This document shows positions 51,495 through 64,000 of a stretch of DNA of 64,000 bases, in pieces. The notes below the pieces were generated by a model that was given only the letters and a program-made list of their open reading frames with translations, was not told the DNA's origin and searched no databases. Location of the stretch: NCBI RefSeq assembly GCF_002077175.1, contig NZ_CP014943.1, positions 868,001-932,000 of the forward strand. The letters run 5' to 3'. The DNA comes from Colwellia sp. PAMC 21821 (GTDB taxonomy: Bacteria; Pseudomonadota; Gammaproteobacteria; Enterobacterales; Alteromonadaceae). The first letter of the stretch is position 1, and each line of letters starts with the position of its first letter. The translations under genes were made by a program, and so were the position numbers.

Positions 51495-54400
51495 TTTATA
51501 AGCTGCCTGTGTGGCAGTGAACAATCTAGCTAACTTATCTAACGATATGTCTATTTTCTAAGCTGCCTGTGTGGCAGTGAACTTTAGCTTCTTTAACTTT
51601 TGCTTTGACCATTGTTTCTAAGCTGCCTGTGCGGCAGTGAACACAGCGGCAACTTTTAGCTCAACTATTGGTGATTTCTAAGCTGCCTGTGCGGCAGTGA
51701 ACAACAATCACACTTTGGTTGGGTTAATGCGCTATTTCTAAGCTGCCTGTGCGGCAGTGAACTCAACACACCAGAAAATAAATGATAGTAGTAATTTCTA
51801 AGCTGCCTGTGCGGCAGTGAACAAAACGCGTCGTTTCGTACTGCCAGTGTCAGCTTTCTAAGCTGCCTGTGCGGCAGTGAACAAGGCTGATTTATCACAA
51901 TCCCAGTTTGGACATTTCTAAGCTGCCTGTGCGGCAGTGAACCGTGGTGTTTAAAAGCCGTATGCATTTTTCTATTTCTAAGCTGCCTGTGCGGCAGTGA
52001 ACTGTTAAAGAGTCGGCAGATTGGAATGGTGAACTTTCTAAGCTGCCTGTGCGGCAGTGAACTAGACGCAGGCGGCAGTGTTAAATGGATTAGTTTTCTA
52101 AGCTGCCTGTGCGGCAGTGAACTACCGGTTCGGTTTGGTGGGAACGATTTAAAGTTTCTAAGCTGCCTGTGCGGCAGTGAACAGGTAAAGGCAAAGGCGC
52201 ATCAAACGCAGCTATTTCTAAGCTGCCTGTGCGGCAGTGAACACGAAGGTTAGATGGTAGAGTGTGCGAAGTTATTTCTAAGCTGCCTGTGCGGCAGTGA
52301 ACTTGCATATCGTGAGCATCGATAACGCATCACATTTCTAAGCTGCCTGTGCGGCAGTGAACTAATAAGCCAACTGTTAACCAGTTGGCTTACTTTTCTA
52401 AGCTGCCTGTGCGGCAGTGAACATTTCGCTATCAGATAATTTATCGGTCTGATTTTTCTAAGCTGCCTGTGCGGCAGTGAACGTAGCTGCTGCTGTAGTC
52501 GTTTGACCTATAACTTTCTAAGCTGCCTGTGCGGCAGTGAACCTACTACACCCGCGTTTTACATTGCACGCGTTTTTCTAAGCTGCCTGTGCGGCAGTGA
52601 ACCTTTTGCGGCAATTGCTACGGGCGCGATGGATTTTCTAAGCTGCCTGTGCGGCAGTGAACCCAAACACAGCCGATTTATTGACTCAATAAATTTTCTA
52701 AGCTGCCTGTGCGGCAGTGAACGAAGTAAATTAACGCTTTCGGTTTTGTGTGGTTTTCTAAGCTGCCTGTGCGGCAGTGAACTTTTTTTCGCCTTGGTCA
52801 TTGGTTGGCTGTTCTTTCTAAGCTGCCTGTGCGGCAGTGAACTCTCGTTATAAGCTTAGGGTCTGCATTGGATATTTCTAAGCTGCCTGTGCGGCAGTGA
52901 ACTATTACATTAAATAACTGGTCGATAGCTATCATTTCTAAGCTGCCTGTGCGGCAGTGAACCAATAGGTCGTGAAGTGTCAAGGTTTTTTGACTTTCTA
53001 AGCTGCCTGTGCGGCAGTGAACTCTGTATTTGGTGTTTGTCCCTTCTTCATACTTTTCTAAGCTGCCTGTGCGGCAGTGAACATGAATGAAAAACTACAT
53101 TTCTTAACCTTTGATTTCTAAGCTGCCTGTGCGGCAGTGAACGTAAAAATGTTATAGATAATTTTTACTATGACTTTCTAAGCTGCCTGTGCGGCAGTGA
53201 ACACTTGATTTGCAAAAGCCTAACTTTCACGCTATTTCTAAGCTGCCTGTGCGGCAGTGAACTGATATGTAGTGATATGTAGTGATATATATTATTTCTA
53301 AGCTGCCTGTGCGGCAGTGAACTTGGCGATAGTCATATTGCAGATGCGCTTTATTTTCTAAGCTGCCTGTGCGGCAGTGAACGAAATAGATGAACATTTA
53401 GATAAGGTAGAGATTTTCTAAGCTGCCTGTGCGGCAGTGAACATTTAAGTTTTTAGGTATTAAATGTTTTCTGTTTTCTAAGCTGCCTGTGCGGCAGTGA
53501 ACAACAACGCTAAAGCTTGGGCCTCTTCTTGTGCTTTCTAAGCTGCCTGTGCGGCAGTGAACCTATTCGAGTTTTAGACGGGGATCTAACAGATTTTCTA
53601 AGCTGCCTGTGCGGCAGTGAACAGAAGATTAGCGATTAATATTAGTAATGTTGCTTTCTAAGCTGCCTGTGCGGCAGTGAACAATCTCCACTGTTTTTAC
53701 ATATCCATCCTTGCTTTCTAAGCTGCCTGTGCGGCAGTGAACGTCGCTAAGATATTAGCGGCCTTAGTGTAATCTTTCTAAGCTGCCTGTGCGGCAGTGA
53801 ACTAAACCTAATGATATCGTCCGCGCTCAACTACTTTCTAAGCTGCCTGTGCGGCAGTGAACAAATGTTTGAATTGAACGGCGAACGTTGGAACTTTCTA
53901 AGCTGCCTGTGCGGCAGTGAACTTATCGTGGGGCTGTAAAACTTATAGTGTTGATTTCTAAGCTGCCTGTGCGGCAGTGAACTTACTGGTAACACTAACA
54001 AACAAACACTAACATTTCTAAGCTGCCTGTGCGGCAGTGAACTATCCCAGTAGTGTTCTCTCGTCGTTTCAACGTTTCTAAGCTGCCTGTGCGGCAGTGA
54101 ACTATTTTTAAAGTCCTACGCTTCGATGCTTGCTTTTCTAAGCTGCCTGTGCGGCAGTGAACGCATCAACGCCTTGTGATGCGTTACTCATAGCTTTCTA
54201 AGCTGCCTGTGCGGCAGTGAACTAAACCTAACAGACTTAACAGGCAGACCAGATTTTCTAAGCTGCCTGTGCGGCAGTGAACGTATATTACCTGACGGAA
54301 TGACAAGTTCAAAATTTCTAAGCTGCCTGTGCGGCAGTGAACTGATGTTGGTAATGTTTCCACTCCGTACCCTATTTCTAAGCTGCCTGTGCGGCAGTGA

Positions 54401-56503
54401 ACTTTCTTCTAGCATGTCTTTAACTACCGGAGCCTTTCTAAGCTGCCTGTGCGGCAGTGAACCCTTATAGGTTTTGACAGAAACAACACTGATTTTTCTA
54501 AGCTGCCTGTGCGGCAGTGAACTAAAAACTGCCCTTTATAACCTTTGCTTAACTTTTCTAAGCTGCCTGTGCGGCAGTGAACGACCAAGTGGAAAACCAC
54601 GGCGATTCCTTGCTTTTCTAAGCTGCCTGTGCGGCAGTGAACCCTCACATCGGCAAGCAGAATTAATCGTTAAATTTCTAAGCTGCCTGTGCGGCAGTGA
54701 ACCATCTCAGTATGTAGATGACCCGGCTGATATATTTCTAAGCTGCCTGTGCGGCAGTGAACGATGATATGCGCTTTCTTAGCACTCTTAAAGTTTTCTA
54801 AGCTGCCTGTGCGGCAGTGAACGTTTTTCGCTTTTTGTCTAGCAGGGTATTTATTTTCTAAGCTGCCTGTGCGGCAGTGAACGCTGCAACAATGTTTGGT
54901 CGGTCTGTTTTAATTTTCTAAGCTGCCTGTGCGGCAGTGAACGGTGGTTAATGATGATATTTATATATCTAATCTTTCTAAGCTGCCTGTGCGGCAGTGA
55001 ACAGATCGCGAGGGCTTGCGATCGGTGTTTGGGGTTTCTAAGCTGCCTGTGCGGCAGTGAACATGTTAAGCATCACACTCGTTTTTTTGCTACTTTTCTA
55101 AGCTGCCTGTGCGGCAGTGAACTCAAGAAAGAAAGTAGAAAGGTTTATCTAATCTTTCTAAGCTGCCTGTGCGGCAGTGAACCTATGTCTTCGTAAGTTG
55201 CTTGATCCTATTATTTTCTAAGCTGCCTGTGCGGCAGTGAACTTGTTTTAATAACGTTGGCGATTTAATTAAGTTTTCTAAGCTGCCTGTGCGGCAGTGA
55301 ACCACTATGCTTGTCGGCCAAGTGAGTTGCGCATTTTCTAAGCTGCCTGTGCGGCAGTGAACTTACTTGAAGTTGTTGTTGATGCTTGTAATCATTTCTA
55401 AGCTGCCTGTGCGGCAGTGAACTATCTCTTGAGTTGGGCGTTGAGCCACCTCACTTTCTAAGCTGCCTGTGCGGCAGTGAACTTTTCTATATAACTATCC
55501 CCTGCAATTATTGCTTTCTAAGCTGCCTGTGCGGCAGTGAACATCTTAATAACAAATTGTTTGGTTCGGCCAGTTTTCTAAGCTGCCTGTGCGGCAGTGA
55601 ACGCGATGCTGCGTTTAATAATGTACTTTCTGGCTTTCTAAGCTGCCTGTGCGGCAGTGAACCTGTGCTCATGAGTGAAAAAGTATATGTGCTATTTCTA
55701 AGCTGCCTGTGCGGCAGTGAACGTTTCATATGGAACTAAGTGGTGATGCTGTTTTTTCTAAGCTGCCTGTGCGGCAGTGAACATTACCGGTAATCGTTGC
55801 ACTGATTACCGGTGTTTCTAAGCTGCCTGTGCGGCAGTGAACTAGTTAAAAAAAACATGAAGAATAAGTTTTTATTTCTAAGCTGCCTGTGCGGCAGTGA
55901 ACTAAATACATCAAGGTACTTGAGTTGCTTTAATTTTTCTAAGCTGCCTGTGCGGCAGTGAACGATATTAGAAAGACCGAGTTTAATTATTTTAATTTCT
56001 AAGCTGCCTGTGCGGCAGTGAACTTTTTCAGTTCGGTCCTATGAATACAGTTAATTTTCTAAGCTGCCTGTGCGGCAGTGAACCATTAAAAAACTTGTTT
56101 GACTTTATTGTTCGCTTTCTAAGCTGCCTGTGCGGCAGTGAACTGGTGGCAATTTGCCCTGATGTTTATTGTTCATTTCTAAGCTGCCTGTGCGGCAGTG
56201 AACCTACATTGTTAATTGTGCTTAATTTTTTTAGTTTTCTAAGCTGCCTGTGCGGCAGTGAACATTTTACCCTGAAATAAAAGCCTTTTTAATGCTTTCT
56301 AAGCTGCCTGTGCGGCAGTGAACCAAGCAACAGAACGATGATAAAAGTGTTGTTTTTTCTAAGCTGCCTGTGCGGCAGTGAACAGTCACCGCTCGCCGTA
56401 CAAACCCACCCTTGATTTCTAAGCTGCCTGTGCGGCAGTGAACATATTCCTTTTGATGTACTTAAATCAGGTATATTTCTAAGCTGCCTGTGCGGCAGTG
56501 AAC
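51495..56503 (-). CRISPR. type I-F CRISPR array, 84 repeats and 83 spacers
   Basis: 28-bp repeats recur every 60 bases. On the transcribed (minus) strand the repeat reads GTTCACTGCC-GCACA-GGCAGCTTAGAAA, with the CTGCC/GGCAG stem recognised by Cas6f. Spacers are 32 nt, except one of 33 nt (55903-55935). Orientation follows from the repeat sense and the cas6f-proximal leader: the newest spacers are at high coordinates. The two repeats nearest the integrase carry a C-to-T change in the loop region, and the last also has one change in the end, as expected of the old trailer end. By eye the other 82 repeats look identical. Short frames reading FLSCLCGSE or SLPHRQLR are artefacts of the repeat. Confidence 0.99.
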
Positions 56504-56631
56504 AATAGAATATCACGCAAAAAACAAGTTACAACAGTGGATTAAGGTAAAATATGAATTTTTACCTTATTTTTATCGCTTGTTGTAACTTGTTGTTTTA
56601 GTTTCTTATTTTTAAAGAGCAAAAATAAAGG
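56504..56631 (-). promoter_or_regulatory. CRISPR leader with nested inverted repeats
   Basis: The 128 bases between cas6f and the first repeat form the leader on the minus strand. AACAAGTTACAACA (56523-56536) and TGTTGTAACTTGTT (56581-56594) are a perfect 14-bp inverted repeat, 44 bases apart. Inside is a second one, AAGGTAAAA/TTTTACCTT (about 56545-56569). Type I-F leaders are known to carry inverted motifs around IHF sites that position Cas1-Cas2/3 for spacer insertion. I found no good IHF consensus, so that role is inferred. Confidence 0.65.
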
Positions 56632-57285
56632 TTAAAACTGGGGAATACTTACCAGTTTTTCTTTATGGTTATGATTTACACTCAAACCATAACAATTAAA
56701 CTTTCCAAATTGTTGCTCGGCAACGTCTACCTTTTTGATAAACAGTGGGAATTTTCTACTGCTAGCTAAATCACGTTGTTTCGTTTCTTGGCTTTCTAAC
56801 CAAATAAAAGGTGAGTTGTTATTCGCTTTAGGTTTGCTTTTTTCAAGCTCGGCTAAACAAATATCAAGCGGTTGTCCAGATTTTTCAGACCAACGCTGCG
56901 CTTTGCTAAGCATATCTTTTTCTATACGCGCTTCACCTTTGACTTGCACCCTAACAAAACTCGCGTGTGCCACCTTTTCTGGTACGGGTTTTATTGATTT
57001 TATATGCACGTAATCTTCAAAGCGATTAAGCCATTTAGCTATGTTTAATTCAGTTAGTTGCGACTCTGCATTTGCTAGTAACCTTAATTGATTGCCTAAC
57101 GGAAATGCGTGTCCACCACTTTTTTCAGCACTATAACGAGGAAAACTAACGGCAATAGCCGACTCATTATCTGCTACTTTGTTATCAACTAAGGCAATAT
57201 GCACTTGTTGGTATACCTTTTGCCAAATGAAACCAAGGGTGATGTCGGCTTCAGGCAGTAAGGTTATATCGAGATAATATTTCAT
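56632..57285 (-). CDS. cas6f: Cas6f / Csy4 CRISPR RNA endoribonuclease
   Basis: Cleaves the repeat RNA at the base of its stem-loop and stays bound to the 3' hairpin of the crRNA (217 aa). His29 lies at exactly the position of the catalytic histidine of P. aeruginosa Csy4 (VYQQVHIAL). The C-terminal part contains SRKFPLFIKK and FNCYGLSV, typical of the family. Last gene of the csy operon, 27 bases after csy3, and immediately followed by the leader. Confidence 0.93.
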   Translation of the reverse strand: MKYYLDITLLPEADITLGFIWQKVYQQVHIALVDNKVADNESAIAVSFPRYSAEKSGGHAFPLGNQLRLLANAESQLTELNIAKWLNRFEDYVHIKSIKPVPEKVAHASFVRVQVKGEARIEKDMLSKAQRWSEKSGQPLDICLAELEKSKPKANNNSPFIWLESQETKQRDLASSRKFPLFIKKVDVAEQQFGKFNCYGLSVNHNHKEKLVSIPQF

Positions 57286-57312
57286 TTTCTTTCTTCCTAT
57301 AAGAAATAAAGA

Positions 57313-58347
57313 CTACTTGTCGCTTTCCCCAAACACACCGCCACGCACTAAAATAGCCATAACATAATGCTCATCTTCCACTCGTTCTAACTCTGTGCCG
57401 CGTGCCCATTTATCAAAAAAGGTGTAGAAATCTTGTTTATCTTTAGGGGTTCTGTACGCTTTCCCTAAATTGGTGACTGCACCATAAGGCTCTATTGCGA
57501 TAGGGCCTGCTGTTTTTTCTGCATCATCAAATTCTGGATACCAAGTATCGATACTGCGTAATGCATTACCTAGTTTTTGCGAGTGCATGGCGGCAATGTC
57601 GTGCACTGAATAAAGGATTTTACTTTTTTTACCTTTACCTTTATCAAGCACTAACTCTTCACTTGGGTAGACTTCTTGCGCCTTGCCTACCTGCACAAAG
57701 CAATTAATTTCCAACATTAAAAAATCATCCGCACTTGATAACGCTGCTGCGATACGTTCGCCCAATTCAGCAACTTGTTTGTCATCATGATTAAAATGAC
57801 GCGTACTAAATTGCGTTGCGTCAAACACCCATGATTGTTTGCTATTTTTATTTAATGCGTTTACTTGTACTTCTATATTTTCAGCACCAACTCGATTACG
57901 CCATAAAAAACGTGCATTCGCTAAGTTAAGAGCATAGCGTTTACCTAATTCTTTAAAAGCTTCTTTTTCAACGTAAGCTGATACCGCTTTACTGTAGCTT
58001 TCTTTAAATAATGCGTTGTTACAGGCTGAAGGAGTTTGTACGCCGCCTAACACTTTTAAGGTAAAGTGCAGCTTTAAGGTATCTTGCTCTGGTGCAAGTG
58101 CACAGCTATCAACTGTTTGTAAGTTAGCTTTTTCTACTTCGGCGTTCAATTTTACAGGATCGCTTTTAATTGCTGCTTTTAAGCGGTTTGAAATAGTACC
58201 GCGCACTGACTTTTCAATGAGTTTTAACGAAATTTGGTTACTGTTTTTATTCCGTTCTTCCCATTGTGTGCCATACATATAACCGTCGGATGGTACTAAT
58301 TTTTTTTCAAATGCCAATACTGATGCGGTGTCTTGATTCTTAGCCAT
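57313..58347 (-). CDS. csy3: Cas7f / Csy3 backbone subunit
   Basis: Forms the helical backbone of the type I-F surveillance complex, one subunit per six guide bases (344 aa). Family sequence: ASVLAFEKKLVPSDGYMYGTQWEER at the N-terminus, LANARFLWRNRVGAENIEVQV in the middle and EQ-rich GAVTNLGKAYRTPKDKQDFYTFFDKW near the end. It lies 25 bases after csy2. Confidence 0.94.
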   Translation of the reverse strand: MAKNQDTASVLAFEKKLVPSDGYMYGTQWEERNKNSNQISLKLIEKSVRGTISNRLKAAIKSDPVKLNAEVEKANLQTVDSCALAPEQDTLKLHFTLKVLGGVQTPSACNNALFKESYSKAVSAYVEKEAFKELGKRYALNLANARFLWRNRVGAENIEVQVNALNKNSKQSWVFDATQFSTRHFNHDDKQVAELGERIAAALSSADDFLMLEINCFVQVGKAQEVYPSEELVLDKGKGKKSKILYSVHDIAAMHSQKLGNALRSIDTWYPEFDDAEKTAGPIAIEPYGAVTNLGKAYRTPKDKQDFYTFFDKWARGTELERVEDEHYVMAILVRGGVFGESDK

Positions 58348-58372
58348 GATAATTTCCTTTTAATAAATTAAG

Positions 58373-59314
58373 TTATGCGTAATAAGCGTTTTCAATTTCT
58401 TCTTCGGTTTGAACAATTTTTTGATTTTGAGTACAAAGATATAAGTTATTGGTTTGATCTGTTTGATAACGCCACAATATTTCGTCGATTGATTTAATTT
58501 TATGAGGCATTTTAAACTCCCCTAGCGTTACAACACTTTCAGCAAAACGGTGCGGGGTATTTGAGTCTCGTTGATTTTTGGCTTCACCTAATTCTGTTAA
58601 ACCGTGAAAACCTGTTGCTATGGGTACAATCCAACCTTTATTTTTTCGCTTGCTCGTCCATTTAAAAGTTTCATCACTTTCAAGTAACGGTTCATCACAT
58701 TTATGATGAATAACGAGATTATCTAACAGCGCATCCATTGCGTCTTGCCCTGCTTTCATTGCGTCAATCATTAAGTCTCGTCGCTCAATTAAGGCATAAC
58801 CGGGCATGAGTTTTCGTGTTAACTTACTAAGGTCTGTGGTATTGCCATTTTCAACCTTGAAAAACTGCGGCGCTTTAAAAGTTAAAATATCACCGCCAGC
58901 CATTTTCATGTTGCTGTTCAGAAAATGCGTAATTTTTTCTTGTACGACGGCTTCATCATCTTTTTCAATACCGATATATTCAATCACTAATGACACAGTT
59001 AAATGACAACGTGCTTCTTCAATGAATGCACTTCTTGCCCCTGTTTTATCTAACGGGTTACCCGTACCAATGATTGAATGTACAAAGTCATCAACACCTT
59101 TATGGGTTTGTAAGTCACATTGATGGTTAACTACAGCAACGCTATTAAATTTAATATCATTATAACCTTGCGCATTCAACTTTCGTTGTAACGCATGTAC
59201 CGCGCCAAGCCATGCGGTCATGGCAGGAAAGCCAATAGAAAACGGGCTAGAAAGCGCATTAGCGTTATGTACTTTTATATGGGGTAATAGCAATAATCGT
59301 TTTAACTCGTTCAT
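58373..59314 (-). CDS. csy2: Cas5f / Csy2 subunit
   Basis: Binds the crRNA 5' handle together with Csy1 (313 aa). The start ELKRLLLLPHIKVHNANALSSPFSIGFPAMTAWLGAVHALQRKL is the family signature. FKWTSKRKNKGWIVPIATGFHGLTELGEAKNQRD and the RFAESVVTLGEFKMPHKI segment follow. The start overlaps the csy1 stop by four bases (ATGA). Confidence 0.94.
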   Translation of the reverse strand: MNELKRLLLLPHIKVHNANALSSPFSIGFPAMTAWLGAVHALQRKLNAQGYNDIKFNSVAVVNHQCDLQTHKGVDDFVHSIIGTGNPLDKTGARSAFIEEARCHLTVSLVIEYIGIEKDDEAVVQEKITHFLNSNMKMAGGDILTFKAPQFFKVENGNTTDLSKLTRKLMPGYALIERRDLMIDAMKAGQDAMDALLDNLVIHHKCDEPLLESDETFKWTSKRKNKGWIVPIATGFHGLTELGEAKNQRDSNTPHRFAESVVTLGEFKMPHKIKSIDEILWRYQTDQTNNLYLCTQNQKIVQTEEEIENAYYA

Positions 59315-60567
59315 TTTAAAAACTCCTTATTACGTTCAATCACTTCGGCAAAGTGTAAACGTTCGGCTTCCCCTAATTTGATTGCTTTTTTATCTAATAC
59401 CTTTTCATAACTACGCGTTAACCATGCAGATATTTCAGTGATGAGTGAATTTAGCCATTGTGCTGATTTTTCTCTTTCATCAGCAAAGTCATCATGTAAC
59501 CAAGTACGTTGAATACTTGATAGTGAAGACGTTTCAGCGTGGTATTGCGTTTGTGAAACTGCACGAACCGCCCACATTTTCTCAATGAGTAAATCTATGA
59601 TTTGTTGAAGGTTACGATCTCTCGCATCACGAAGTTTGATATTGTTATAGTCAGTCTGAAATAATTTATGCAGTGCTTTAAAATTATTGGCATATTCATA
59701 TTTTTTAAATGACTCGGTAAAAAAATCACTTTTAGGAAAGTGAACATTTCGCTTTTCAATACTCGGTGGTGATGACGATAAAAGGTGCGCTTTACCACCA
59801 TTTTGATTATTTAAAACACTTATATTTTGTGGCTTTGTGCCACCATAACCTATGGTAGTTAAGCCATATATTTCACTATAACCTTGCTCGCTAAATTCGT
59901 TTTTACGCTTTTTATCACGAAGTTCTTTAACTTCTTCTGAAAAACGTAATTTATCTAAGCGAGAACGCAATTGATAAACCATGCCCGAATTAGTTAGCAG
60001 TGATAGTTGGTGATAATCATCGTCAACGGGAAAATATACTTGTTTTATTTTAGAGCTAGTAATGTTTTCCGTTGCGCTTTCAACCATTGCTAAAAAACCA
60101 CTTCTCAGCTCTTGATAATTAGCAGATTTAATTGCTAATAATGTTTGTGCTAAGTCCGTTTCTTGTTGAATGTGTGTTAATAAATTATCACCGTTTTGCA
60201 TGGTTAAGGTTAAGAATTTATAGACATCTAGCGCAGCAGCATTACCTAATGCATCGGTAGCTACTGCAACGTTACCTGTTTTTAAGTAACCATCATCAAC
60301 GCTGTCTATTTCAGCTAAAACAGAAGAGACATAACCATTTTTGTTTTTTCTGGCACTAGGATGGCTAAAGGTGCAAGGATGAGTAGACATAGATATTTGC
60401 CCTGCCCTTTTCGCTGCATTAGGCAACCATTCATTTAATGAAAATTGTTGCTCGCATAATTGCTCTAGTTCTTGTAACTCATGCTCTTGCATAGCTGCTT
60501 TAGCATTCTTTTTTAACCATGCTTCTTTTCGTTCAGAAAAGTAATTCTGTATTGCAGGATCTAACAT
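59311..60567 (-). CDS. csy1: Cas8f / Csy1 large subunit
   Basis: Large subunit of the type I-F complex that recognises the CC PAM (418 aa). Typical segments are FSLNEWLPNAAKRAGQISMSTHPCTFSHPSARKN and GNAAALDVYKFLTLTMQNG in the N-terminal half, and GYGGTKPQNISVLNNQNGGKAHLLSSSPP near residue 245. The ATG (60565-60567) has an ideal AAGGAGG upstream. It is the first gene of a four-gene operon with its own promoter, separated from cas2-3 by the mini-CRISPR. Confidence 0.95.
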   Translation of the reverse strand: MLDPAIQNYFSERKEAWLKKNAKAAMQEHELQELEQLCEQQFSLNEWLPNAAKRAGQISMSTHPCTFSHPSARKNKNGYVSSVLAEIDSVDDGYLKTGNVAVATDALGNAAALDVYKFLTLTMQNGDNLLTHIQQETDLAQTLLAIKSANYQELRSGFLAMVESATENITSSKIKQVYFPVDDDYHQLSLLTNSGMVYQLRSRLDKLRFSEEVKELRDKKRKNEFSEQGYSEIYGLTTIGYGGTKPQNISVLNNQNGGKAHLLSSSPPSIEKRNVHFPKSDFFTESFKKYEYANNFKALHKLFQTDYNNIKLRDARDRNLQQIIDLLIEKMWAVRAVSQTQYHAETSSLSSIQRTWLHDDFADEREKSAQWLNSLITEISAWLTRSYEKVLDKKAIKLGEAERLHFAEVIERNKEFLK

Positions 60568-60599
60568 TGTTAACCTCCTTATCTTTTAAACTTGAAAAT

Positions 60600-60628
60600 A
60601 CAATAAAATAAAAACAAAAAGTTATCAA
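60600..60628 (-). promoter_or_regulatory. csy operon promoter
   Basis: On the minus strand TTGATA (60623-60628), a 17-base spacer and TATTGT (60600-60605) precede csy1 by about 30 bases. The -35 box abuts the CC PAM of the site matched by the mini-CRISPR guide. Confidence 0.6.
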
Positions 60629-60650
60629 CCTCATAATGATTAAATTAATT
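60629..60650 (+). promoter_or_regulatory. predicted target site of the mini-CRISPR RNA at the csy1 promoter
   Basis: CC (60629-60630, the type I-F PAM) is followed by TCATAATGATTAAATTAATT (60631-60650). This matches the mini-array guide TCATATTGATTGATTTATTT at 16 of 20 positions. Mismatches are at 6, 12, 14 and 18. A Csy complex bound here would cover the region directly next to the csy1 -35 box. Confidence 0.75.
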
Positions 60651-60673
60651 AAAGATTAATTTTATTTAATAAC

Positions 60674-60702
60674 GTGATTTTAGCTCTGTATTTTTTTATA
60701 CT
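60674..60702 (+). promoter_or_regulatory. promoter of the mini-CRISPR RNA
   Basis: TATACT at 60697-60702 with a weak -35 GTGATT at 60674-60679 (17-base spacer). The predicted start near 60709 falls just before the first base of the repeat stem (60710). Confidence 0.5.
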
Positions 60703-60704
60703 TT

Positions 60705-60780
60705 GACTACTGCCATAAAGGCAGCTTAGAAATCATATTGATTGATTTATTTGTTCACTGCCACATAGGCAGCCTAAAAG
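60705..60780 (+). CRISPR. degenerate two-repeat mini-CRISPR (CreR-like) between cas2-3 and csy1
   Basis: Repeat 1 (60705-60732) matches the array repeat at 22 of 28 positions and repeat 2 (60753-60780) at 23 of 28. They flank a 20-nt guide (60733-60752). Sense is plus, opposite to the cas genes and the main array. Repeat 1 retains the stem and the full 5' handle CTTAGAAA. Repeat 2 retains GTTCACTGCC and GGCAG. Changes in repeat 1 fall before the stem and in the loop; changes in repeat 2 fall in the loop and after the Cas6f cleavage site. The guide is 12 nt (two Csy3 units) shorter than normal. Confidence 0.9.
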
Positions 60781-60806
60781 CCTGATTAGTAATAATCAGG
60801 TTTTTT
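60709..60806 (+). ncRNA. predicted crRNA-like regulatory RNA (CreR-type)
   Basis: A transcript of about 98 nt is predicted from the promoter at 60674-60702 to the terminator at 60781-60808. Cas6f cleavage would give an 8-nt handle, a 20-nt guide and a 3' hairpin. I infer that it loads into a short Csy complex and represses the csy operon without licensing cleavage. The boundaries are predictions; no expression evidence can be read from sequence. Confidence 0.65.
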
Positions 60807-60808
60807 TT
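60781..60808 (+). terminator. terminator of the mini-CRISPR RNA, overlapping the cas2-3 3' end
   Basis: CCTGATTA and TAATCAGG pair around GTAA and are followed by T8 on the plus strand. The cas2-3 stop codon (TGA at 60796-60798 on the minus strand) lies inside the stem, so the two convergent units share these bases. Confidence 0.85.
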
Positions 60809-63800
60809 ATTTTAACTAACCCAAACTGGTCGTTATATTCGTACTGTGCATTTTCACGCTCTACCATATTTATTTCCCCGTAACGCAATGAGACTCGCTT
60901 TCGTGTTGTTAACCATGGTTCACTGAGGTAATTCGCTAATAACTGTTGGTAATTGCGCTCAAACCATAAGTTTTTTTGCTGTTTTTCTGTTAATTCTATT
61001 TGCTTAATATTGTGAATATTTCCTCGATTTATGGCCTGATAATACATATCTAACAAAGGCTTACCCGCATCATCTTTTTCGGTAAAATAACAGTTATCTT
61101 CATTCTCGTTATAAAACAAAAATAAATTAATACTCGCTTCACTTTTTCTAAAAGGGGTTAATACTTGTGGTAAAGCTGTTAAGTACCAGGTTTCGGTTAA
61201 ATACCCTTGTAAAGTGTTTGCGCCAAATGCAGAAAAGTTTGTAAGTTGTTGCGCAGTTACTTGATGTTCCATAAACGCTAATAACTGCTTATCTGCTTGG
61301 ATAGGTACTTTTATCCTAGGAATGGCATTTAAACTTTTGTTAATACGTACTTCATTCACTAATTTATTAAGATCATGGCTGTGTAGTGTTTGAGCCCAAC
61401 CATCTTCATAGCCTGGTTTAATGAAATACTTACCATCTTGCTTATCATTAGCTTTAAATGTCTTGAGGTTATATTGCATTACACTAATGTTGGCTGATGC
61501 TACTTCTTCCGATCTATGTCGTCGAACGCGCCCGGCAAGTTGTACAATTGAGCGATAAGATGATGGTTCAATAATTGCCCAGTCAAAATCATGATCTCGC
61601 CCGACTTCTTCAACAGGCGTTGCCACTAAAATGAACAGTACATTGTTAATATGGCTATTATTTTTAGCGCATGATTTTTTTGCACATAAGTCAAGATGAT
61701 TGCGGATCACGGGGTTGGAAAATGCTTGCTGAGTCTCTCCTGCTTTTTCTTTTCGTTTTAACACCTCATCAAGGTGTTTTTCTTGTTCATGACGCAGTAA
61801 CAAAACTTGTTGGCTGTGATATGCCATTACTTTTACTTGGGTATCTTGTGGGTAGTCGGCTTGTAGTAAGTATTTGGTTAATTCTACACAGGGCGAAATA
61901 TTAGCTACACGAACAACGCCGAATGAAACCTTTATTGCTGTTTTGCTATCAATGCTATGGTGTTGTTGATGTTTGGCTAAAGTAGCTTGTTTTACTGCTG
62001 AAAAATAATGAGATTGTTTACTTTCTTCACATCCATTTTCTGTTGTTGTTGCTTCTATCGGTATTAGTGGGCAAGGCAGAATGTCAGCTTTACGTTTAGC
62101 TACTTGCTTATTTAGACTGTTAACACGTTTGTCGATAAAGTTATTGTGATTAACCTGATATTGTTCAAGAGCACTATTACCATGTGTTGCGTTGCTTTGT
62201 ATCACATTGACGCTATGCACGTGTGTGGTAAATTCGTCTATCCATGCGCAGCCTATTTCAGCTTTTGCTTCGTCTCGACTTTTGGTGAAAATTTGCCAGC
62301 CTTTTTTGTAGGCATTGAAGTAACCTAGCGCTAAATCTGGCGGAATAGTTGCCGATGAGATCATGACTTTTCTACCTAACATGCCTGCTAAGTGAATAAG
62401 TCTGCCAATGGCGATTAAATCATCGCCAGTAAAATCATCTATTTCATCAATAACAAGATCAGAAGACATTAACCGTAAACTCGGCAAAATATAGCGACCA
62501 CCTCGCTTGGTTTCTGTTGCCGCCATTAAGTGGTCAATGGTGCACGCCAGCACTGGCGCATATAAAAACTGTTTATCTTTAGTACACGTTAATACGGTAC
62601 TTAGCCCTTCTTCGGGTATTTCGCAGTCATAATCAATAAACTCCTCTAATAAGGTCTCTTGTGATTCTGAGCCTAAAACCTCATCAGTTATTTCATCTTG
62701 TTTAATTTCTCGTTGGTTGTGCAGTTCAGCAACCGCCCTTGAGCCAATTAATACCGCAAGGTCTGCATTGGTTAAACCTATTCGGTCACGATATTCATCA
62801 CCTGTTTGCAAAGTTAATGTACGTAACCCCAGAGCAAGAATATAACGCAGGCTTTTGCCGTCAGCCGATAACGCACGCATAACCTTAGCGTTGGCAAATG
62901 TTTTACCACAACCGGTACTTGCCATGTTAACCGCGAAAAAACCTGTTACTTTTTTGTCTTGCTGTGTTTTCCATTCATTAATTTTGGTTACGGCTTTATC
63001 TTGCCATTTATATTTAGGGTCTGAACTTACCCGCCTTAACTCTTGAATATCAGTTGCCACTGGTGGCTCTTTTTCAAATGCGGGTAATAAATGTGCGGTG
63101 TCTAAGGCGTTTTTTGCCACGCCTACCAAGTGCTCATCAAGCTTTTGCTTTAGCTCGCTAGTATTTCGATCAGTATTAGCGAATAGTCCTGTACTATTTT
63201 TCCAGTTTTTCGCGGCATTTTGTGATGAATAAAAGTGATCACCTAACATTAAACACAAACGCGCATGGTGTAATACCAAACGATAACTTCCGTCTTTCAT
63301 CGCTGATTCAAGCAAAGGCAAATTATTGAGTAGGCTAGTTGACCAACGTTTTATTTTTTGAGTCCACTGTATTGACTCTGATAACAAACCATTGGGAAAT
63401 TCAAAACAATGCTTTACGCGTTTGTTGTATTCTGCTTCATCTATCTTGTTTTCATAGCCCCATTTTTGGGTTATACGTTTAAGCGTAGTGGCTATATCAG
63501 GTGCTTTGTCACAGCGCCAATCTTCTTTCGAATAGGGTAGGCGATGATGCGAAACAATTAACCAAGCTAATAGTTTTGCCGCGTTAGGCAACTTATCTAA
63601 TGGTGTTGAGTTTTGTGTTTTAATAGTTGCTTTTAACTGTGTTTCAGTAAAACCGTTTTGCGCTAATTCGGTTAACCATGTTTCATCACTTTTACTATTC
63701 ACTAAGGCATTAAGTAATAAAACAGAAATCCATTCATGCCTTAGCGGATCACCTTTGAATTTATTTTTACTATTAGGGCTTAACTTCTCTTGAAATAAAC

Positions 63801-64000
63801 GAGATGCTTTTCCCCAGTCATGAAGTAACGCTGAAAGCGCTGTAAGTGATTTAATTAACGGTAAGTATTTCCAGTCACTTTCTATTTCACTATTTAACAA
63901 ATTTTTCTTAGTACTATTCACCGCGACTACACCTGCTGCATTAAACTTGTTTTTATTCCCTACCACCCAAATAAACTGACTTCTTGAACGCGAACGTATC
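60796..64000 (-). CDS. cas3: Cas2-3 fusion nuclease-helicase (Cas3f), 5' end beyond window
   Basis: Type I-F Cas3 fused to Cas2. The frame stays open to the window edge. Upstream of residue VGNKNKF the visible codons read IRSRSRSQFIWV, which aligns with the end of the Cas2 domain in P. aeruginosa Cas2-3. The GTG at 63964-63966 is therefore internal and not the start. The HD nuclease motif is LLHDWGKASRLFQ, with a later SHHRLPY. Helicase motifs follow: Walker A STGCGKT, DEID, SSAT, VATPVEEVGRDHDFD, and QLAGRVRRHR. A C-terminal domain of about 200 residues ends in YNDQFGLVKIKKT. It degrades target DNA and joins Cas1 in adaptation; cas1 should lie just outside the window. Confidence 0.96.
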   Translation of the reverse strand, partial: IRSRSRSQFIWVVGNKNKFNAAGVVAVNSTKKNLLNSEIESDWKYLPLIKSLTALSALLHDWGKASRLFQEKLSPNSKNKFKGDPLRHEWISVLLLNALVNSKSDETWLTELAQNGFTETQLKATIKTQNSTPLDKLPNAAKLLAWLIVSHHRLPYSKEDWRCDKAPDIATTLKRITQKWGYENKIDEAEYNKRVKHCFEFPNGLLSESIQWTQKIKRWSTSLLNNLPLLESAMKDGSYRLVLHHARLCLMLGDHFYSSQNAAKNWKNSTGLFANTDRNTSELKQKLDEHLVGVAKNALDTAHLLPAFEKEPPVATDIQELRRVSSDPKYKWQDKAVTKINEWKTQQDKKVTGFFAVNMASTGCGKTFANAKVMRALSADGKSLRYILALGLRTLTLQTGDEYRDRIGLTNADLAVLIGSRAVAELHNQREIKQDEITDEVLGSESQETLLEEFIDYDCEIPEEGLSTVLTCTKDKQFLYAPVLACTIDHLMAATETKRGGRYILPSLRLMSSDLVIDEIDDFTGDDLIAIGRLIHLAGMLGRKVMISSATIPPDLALGYFNAYKKGWQIFTKSRDEAKAEIGCAWIDEFTTHVHSVNVIQSNATHGNSALEQYQVNHNNFIDKRVNSLNKQVAKRKADILPCPLIPIEATTTENGCEESKQSHYFSAVKQATLAKHQQHHSIDSKTAIKVSFGVVRVANISPCVELTKYLLQADYPQDTQVKVMAYHSQQVLLLRHEQEKHLDEVLKRKEKAGETQQAFSNPVIRNHLDLCAKKSCAKNNSHINNVLFILVATPVEEVGRDHDFDWAIIEPSSYRSIVQLAGRVRRHRSEEVASANISVMQYNLKTFKANDKQDGKYFIKPGYEDGWAQTLHSHDLNKLVNEVRINKSLNAIPRIKVPIQADKQLLAFMEHQVTAQQLTNFSAFGANTLQGYLTETWYLTALPQVLTPFRKSEASINLFLFYNENEDNCYFTEKDDAGKPLLDMYYQAINRGNIHNIKQIELTEKQQKNLWFERNYQQLLANYLSEPWLTTRKRVSLRYGEINMVERENAQYEYNDQFGLVKIKKT

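Follow-up and report, generated by a model that had tools for sequence, protein, structure and literature searches.

The gap between cas3f and csy1 of Colwellia sp. PAMC 21821 holds a mini-CRISPR array whose 20-nt guide matches a site beside a CC PAM at the csy1 promoter. Judged from the DNA alone, this mini-array is probably (at about 0.84) a type I-F CreR-like autorepressor guide that turns down the csy1-csy2-csy3-cas6f operon. The kind, a CreR-like regulatory mini-CRISPR, is already known and the element adds a member to it; the most interesting part of the analysis is a three-block pairing rule that holds over dozens of csy1 loci. The means by which cells stop a DNA-targeting immune complex from growing too abundant are a subject of active interest; in this locus the controlling element is legible in the DNA itself and open to direct testing.

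A mini-array in the type I-F locus

The window, that is, the whole stretch of 64,000 nt analysed, contains a type I-F system with a csy1-csy2-csy3-cas6f operon behind cas3f.

59311–60567, minus strand: csy1 (cas8f), NCBIfam TIGR02564 above cut-off, first gene of the operon proposed to be regulated
58373–59314, minus strand: csy2, NCBIfam TIGR02565 above cut-off
57313–58347, minus strand: csy3 (cas7f), NCBIfam TIGR02566 above cut-off
56632–57285, minus strand: csy4 (cas6f), NCBIfam TIGR02563 above cut-off, presumed processing enzyme
60796–63999, minus strand: cas3f (cas2/3), NCBIfam match above cut-off, continuing past the window end
L119 2250–3245, just outside the window: cas1f, NCBIfam match above cut-off
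51495–56503, minus strand: main CRISPR array with 84 repeats; of its 83 spacers, 82 have 32 nt and one has 33

The main array has the orientation of csy1, csy2, csy3 and cas6f and may be the source of competing crRNAs for the Csy proteins. None of its 83 spacers matched positions 56601–64000 at 75% or more. Between the main array and cas6f, an imperfect inverted repeat with 32-nt arms (78%; 56519–56598) is possibly part of the leader.

The mini-array, its target and the promoter next to it are laid out as follows.

60698–60703, plus strand: putative −10 box TATACT of the mini-array promoter, picked by eye
60705–60732, plus strand: repeat 1, degenerate type I-F, 5′ handle CTTAGAAA kept and head lost
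60733–60752, plus strand: guide TCATATTGATTGATTTATTT, 20 nt, between the two repeats
60753–60780, plus strand: repeat 2, degenerate type I-F, head and hairpin kept and tail altered
60776–60805, plus strand: intrinsic terminator-like hairpin belonging to the mini-array and separating it from the cas3 end
60631–60650, plus strand: guide target site TCATAATGATTAAATTAATT, 16/20, mismatches at 6, 12, 14 and 18
60629–60630, plus strand: CC PAM, adjoining the −35 box of the csy1 promoter
60600–60628, minus strand: csy1 promoter-like pair TTGATA-17-TATTGT from a pair scan, with the same placement beside the PAM seen again in relatives

Both repeats resemble the Rfam CRISPR-DR4 family at scores below its gathering score, repeat 1 from model position 5 (E 0.0066) and repeat 2 with E 4.8e-6, its 34 bits falling just short of the required 35. 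The complement of TATACT is invariant in an alignment of four clade members. One terminator-like hairpin was found where shuffles led to an expectation of 0.1, and the fold of the predicted transcript beat 200/200 shuffles (z −5.5), its longest stem being the terminator. Two degenerate repeats around one short guide, with cas genes adjoining, form an arrangement expected of CreR. An ordinary array spacer was rejected as an identity for the guide, because it has 20 nt rather than 32, its repeats are degenerate, and it lies on the strand opposite the main array.

The guide matches the csy1 promoter beside a PAM

Recomputation bore out the match on which the original prediction was built: the guide and the site at 60631–60650 agree at 16 positions, the site is preceded by CC, the mismatches fall at 6, 12, 14 and 18, and the seed is intact. 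The PAM had also been said to touch the −35 box, and this is literally so, since on the csy1 strand GG, the complement of CC, is followed directly by TTGATA-17-TATTGT, running from 60628 down to 60600. As the pair scan found three promoter-like pairs against 2.2 expected in shuffles, the promoter call rests on position and on recurrence in relatives. The csy1 start lies 63 nt from the PAM edge. As in CreR, the guide is thus partly complementary to the promoter of its own cas operon, with an adjoining PAM. Between the site and csy1, the window contained no ORF with an ATG and a Shine-Dalgarno sequence in a scan from 8 codons upwards, giving no sign of toxin-gene coupling at that size; a pure RNA toxin would escape such a scan.

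To gauge chance, the 137 bp separating csy1 from repeat 1 were shuffled 20,000 times with dinucleotides preserved. A 16/20 match of any kind arose in 84/20,000 shuffles, and one with an adjoining CC in 0/20,000. Within the 64-kb window, no second place reached 16/20, or 14/17 at the non-sixth positions, the guide itself excepted. When the whole genome (4,884,300 bases) was searched for CC plus the 17 non-sixth guide bases with at most two mismatches, two matches were returned, the target site (one mismatch) and the guide itself (two mismatches, no CC), leaving the target site as the only CC-flanked match within two mismatches in the 4.88-Mb genome. The same pattern read backwards, as a control, gave 0 matches in the whole genome.

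Guide and site change together in relatives

Independent divergence of guide and promoter site in related genomes would have spoken against the original prediction; the outcome of this check favoured it. Matched changes of guide and site were seen at six block positions, 2, 4, 7, 8, 16 and 17, in the window's clade of four (L001, which is the window; L017; L003, Thalassotalea sp. ND16A; L007, Colwellia sp. NORP201). Positions 6 and 12 showed no matched change among the four, and positions 18–20 varied loosely. Position 14 differs in the window's site alone: it is paired in L017, the nearest relative that carries the module, and the change sits in the window's site. Together with the CC found in 33/33 mini-arrays of the survey below, the six matched changes call for selection, so that the match appears, as in CreR, to be upheld by selection in relatives (33 loci and the clade of four). 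Elsewhere, L113 and L114 share an identical guide, and within the first 17 positions their sites differ at 6, 12 and 14.

A survey of csy1 loci

We gathered 140 csy1 loci by protein similarity plus the Pfam Csy1 family and scanned 137, having dropped as duplicates L054 and L056 (whose genes equal those of L001 and L019) and L016 (taken as a duplicate of L002). Gene pieces (L109, L116), second hits of genomes already included (L110, L111) and matches lacking a locus id (1 + 4 + 5 + 8 in four draws) were left out. The draws, 14 loci by similarity, the orders of four genomes, and one family, class and phylum, were non-random, and relatives are not independent; counts excluding the window's clade are given separately. 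A strict scan, blind to the target, required two I-F-like hairpin repeats on one strand, 13–40 nt apart and at most 1.1 kb upstream of csy1, with 6 of 8 handle bases kept. Guides were then scored at all positions on both strands over their first 20 bases (fewer if the guide was shorter), with no PAM imposed.

Strict mini-arrays were found at 33 of the 137 loci, and in 33/33 the unique best site was preceded by CC, a dinucleotide that precedes 3,303/68,864 candidate positions (4.8%) in the background. The site lay on the mini-array strand in 31 and on the opposite strand in two (L077, L088). The best CC match averaged 0.81 for own pairs versus 0.53 for 1,056 cross-locus pairs, and a match of at least 0.75 was reached by 31/33 own pairs and 8 of the 1,056 cross pairs. 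The family draw yielded one strict mini-array in 28 newly scanned loci. A looser scan asked for repeat 1 only plus a CC site with the first five bases intact and 12 of 15 block positions matching; 39 loci scored, including eight new ones, and the scan missed two from the strict set of 33. Control guides scored in 3/1,220 cases, and 54 loci had a repeat-1-like hairpin, 39 of them with a qualifying CC site. The eight extra loci were picked by the match itself and enter no position statistic. Enterobacter cloacae DSM 26481 (L015), seen by the looser scan only, has a repeat-1 hairpin and a guide with a nearby CC-flanked match.

By either scan the element is present at 41/137 loci and missing from 96/137, including close relatives such as L002, and is therefore dispensable. 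The search for such a repeat came up empty in L002 (Motilimonas sp. E26, csy1 86% identical), L004–L006 and L008, where the cas3 coding sequence was judged by eye to reach csy1. A gap of at least 150 bases upstream of csy1 was present at 28/33 loci with a strict mini-array versus 21/101 without, seven of these 21 being among the eight new loci of the looser scan; the median gap was 255 with a strict mini-array and 0 without. The module thus tends to accompany a split operon and may be missing in close relatives. Over the mini-arrays, repeat 1 kept 7.6 of 8 handle bases (the filter demanded 6) and 1.7 of 5 head bases, and repeat 2 kept 3.5 of 5 head bases and 3.4 of 8 tail bases. The conserved repeat parts are, by comparison of sequences, those predicted for the mature crRNA, an outcome partly imposed by the filter.

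Pairing is kept in three blocks of five

At block positions 1–5, 7–11 and 13–17 the 33 guides matched their sites at 457/487 positions, while positions 6, 12 and 18 matched at 28/96, the level of unrelated sequence. The earlier explanation of the mismatches by flipped-out bases fits these data well: mismatches occupied 68/96 of positions 6/12/18 versus 30/487 elsewhere in positions 1–18. When mismatches were permuted within loci, 14.0 fell at 6/12/18 on average (sd 2.7, maximum 27 in 20,000), and 0/20,000 permutations reached the observed 68. Excluding the window's clade, the counts were 60/84 versus 29/427. No clear sign of active avoidance of matching at 6, 12 and 18 was seen, the observed frequencies being 0.21, 0.27 and 0.40 versus 0.34, 0.27 and 0.34 expected.

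Later positions, multiples of six excluded, matched at 56/127, compared with 0.36 for unrelated guide-site pairs. In the ten guides of at least 24 nt, block positions matched at 139/150 and later ones at only 39/91, so strong pairing stops near position 18 in long guides as well. The constraint mostly ends there even in guides of 24–36 nt, and a small excess over 0.36 persists. Eight loci had no block mismatch, 20 had one and 5 had two; the commonest break was position 14 (5/33 loci). The window, whose effective pairing had been described as broken once, at 14, does have this single break, and with it the commonest state (20/33). The flipped-out bases look unconstrained in these alignments, and about 15 paired bases seem enough for regulation. 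We lean slightly towards the view that type I-F regulatory guides share one design rule across distant bacteria, in which three 5-bp blocks adjoining CC are kept by selection, every sixth base and mostly all bases past 18 are ignored at any guide length, and the PAM usually lies against the −35 box.

Promoter geometry across loci

Among the 28 loci of the window's orientation, 22 had a TTG box starting 0–3 nt past GG, against a background of 109/1,189 upstream GG dinucleotides, PAMs included. In L011, L013, L020 and the window's clade, 62–68 nt separate the csy1 start from the PAM edge, and on reading the sequences an ATG or GTG csy1 start was placed within about 130 nt at 17/33 loci. At the other 16 the intervening sequence is longer or the start is unclear, and CreTA-like modules may be among them. 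The layout is mirrored in L009 (a Helicobacteraceae bin): csy1 and the mini-array share a strand, and the site falls just downstream of TTGACA-16-TATAAT.

Several loci have further features after the site. L028 and L031 carry ORFs with Shine-Dalgarno sequences (49–51 and 44 codons) between target site and csy1, with basic and then hydrophobic residues at their start; the mini-arrays of these two loci may provide antitoxin guides in CreTA-like modules and not be CreR. In L043 and L044, mini-arrays with 36-nt guides on the csy1 strand lie about 600–770 bases upstream of the csy1 match, and the CC-flanked site is followed by a 107-codon ORF; the regulated gene may be other than csy1. By eye, L047, L050, L052 and L053 have G+C-rich hairpin-like sequences after the site promoter and well before csy1, which are possible small RNAs.

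Proposed autorepression and its alternatives

In the proposed mechanism, Cas6f would cut the mini-array transcript into a short crRNA with an 8-nt handle, a 20-nt guide and a 3′ hairpin, predicted to start CTTAGAAA-TCATATTG. This crRNA would load into the Csy complex and direct it to the CC-flanked site at 60631–60650, where a short R-loop of three 5-bp blocks (1–5, 7–11 and 13–17) would form, with 6, 12 and 18 flipped out and 14 unpaired in the window's strain. With the PAM-binding end of the complex against the −35 box, RNA polymerase would be kept off the csy1 promoter, and its exclusion would turn down the csy1-csy2-csy3-cas6f operon. An R-loop of this length would not suffice to license Cas2/3, leaving the chromosome uncut. 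Since array crRNAs would compete for the Csy proteins, repression should rise with Csy excess and be relieved by an ample crRNA supply or by a block of the complex.

Experiments on related systems bear on these steps. Every sixth guide base is flipped out in Class 1 complexes, the type I seed is formed by positions 1–5 and 7–8, and Cas3 acts after a complete R-loop (PMC11127173); for a natural I-F3 guide, a mismatch at a flipped-out position is discussed (PMC12774636). The 20-nt guide of the Acinetobacter I-F CreA, unpaired at 6, 11 and 18, gives about 7-fold, csy4-dependent repression at the RNA level; its function was lost on mutating 2–5, 7–9 or 13–17, partly lost at 1, and kept on mutating 10, 12, 19 and 20, while compensatory mutations at positions 5, 7 and 15 brought it back (PMC10097628). 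Type I-B spacers shortened to 24 bp repressed without interference or primed adaptation (PMC10989794). With the Acinetobacter CreA and type I-B short-spacer precedents, repression without self-cutting would be expected here too. The CreA results agree with the natural profile except for the predicted cost of the window's break at 14: because mutations in 13–17 abolish CreA function, repression in the window may be only partial. The Acinetobacter toxin assay may demand tighter repression than control of csy1.

Other readings of the element were weighed against autorepression. It is improbable that the mini-array serves as antitoxin in a CreTA addiction module, its guide repressing a toxin gene and not csy1. 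An Acinetobacter I-F CreTA does occupy the same cas3-csy1 gap, and it too has a 20-nt guide whose target is flanked by CC (PMC10097628); the short ORFs between site and csy1 in L028 and L031 would suit such modules. In the window, csy1 itself comes directly after the promoter with no such ORF between (an RNA toxin would be missed), and CreTA was rejected there, neither a toxin gene nor a mini-ORF having been found. We likewise give little credence to a bound complex that activates csy1 or mainly roadblocks read-through from cas3. The predicted R-loop lies upstream of the −35 box, off the promoter core, which counts against autorepression; activators also bind in that place, transcription from cas3 would cross the site, and loci without a strict mini-array are mostly gapless before csy1 (the medians of 0 versus 255 above). 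Against this, a terminator-like hairpin already parts cas3 from the mini-array, the PAM edge touches the −35 box, and the L009 site downstream of the −10 box suits blocking.

A slightly more remote reading is that an ancestral autorepressor, once working, is weak or decaying in the window's strain, with position 14 as the first sign. L017 pairs at 14 where the changed site of the window does not, and that position mattered in Acinetobacter CreA (PMC10097628); yet one block break is the commonest state and 14 its commonest place, and CC, seed, handle and terminator are all intact. Hardly any weight falls on the notion that guide and site are functionless, copies by descent or a chance match in A+T-rich DNA. 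Both are indeed A+T-rich, and 84 of the shuffles reached 16/20 when no PAM was asked for, but the CC at every strict mini-array and the six matched changes speak against both forms. Chance was rejected because no shuffle gave a match with CC and the site is unique in the genome; decay of a relic would strike all positions alike, and descent was rejected because mismatches are concentrated at every sixth base. Autorepression of csy1 by the mini-array thus remains the preferred reading.

Known systems and wider meaning

CreR (Liu et al. 2023, Cell Host Microbe; as cited in PMC13131331 and PMC12737573) resembles the window's element in being a mini-CRISPR near cas genes with a guide partly matching a cas promoter, and in the expected autorepression that senses crRNA supply and anti-CRISPRs. 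Such autorepression is named for types I-B, I-E and V-A in PMC13131331 and given for type I and V-A in general in PMC12737573. Unlike CreR as described there, the window's element is of type I-F, sets its PAM against the −35 box and has three 5-bp blocks. Acinetobacter sp. WCHA45 has an I-F CreTA (PMC10097628) that shares with the window's element the cas3-csy1 gap, two degenerate repeats, a 20-nt guide, the CC PAM, unpaired positions 6 and 18 and Csy-based repression; it differs in repressing a toxic RNA gene, in a target downstream of the transcription start, and in being unpaired at 11, where the window is unpaired at 12. Racr phage RNA anti-CRISPRs are also repeat mimics handled by Cas6f, but each is a single repeat unit of viral origin by which Cas proteins are sequestered (PMC10651486 and PMC11656645), whereas the window's element has two repeats and a guide in a chromosomal cas locus. 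A Racr identity was rejected because of the two repeats in a cas locus, and no viral contig carried a copy of the window's guide by the one guide pattern tried; no csy1 relative was confirmed in viral contigs either.

In the part of the literature covered, no mention of a csy1, csy, csy operon or cas8f promoter was found. The same partial coverage returned neither a position profile across large numbers of I-F regulatory guides, nor pairing that stops near 18, nor a PAM set against −35, any of which may therefore be published elsewhere. Shmakov et al. (2023, Nucleic Acids Res) reportedly described mini-arrays with partial complementarity to cas8 promoters, a type I-F1 example being tested. The natural guide-site pairs can be read as an extensive mutagenesis of the Csy R-loop carried out in vivo, and if the shared design rule is true, their variation records the R-loop length needed to silence a promoter yet spare the chromosome. 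If so, a module with its own terminator and promoter would also turn one cas operon into a self-limiting csy operon. A search rule follows, namely a repeat hairpin, a CTTAGAAA-like handle, a 17-nt guide and a CC site in the adjoining promoter, and the profile likewise provides a design rule for type I-F silencing guides.

Five Acinetobacter plasmids (NZ_CP156773.1, CP061706.1, NZ_CP046295.1, NZ_CP156769.1 and NZ_CP156788.1) matched 26–30% of the intergenic query, at 74–77% identity to the mini-array/repeat part and in stretches without listed genes; these matches are perhaps I-F repeats on plasmids.
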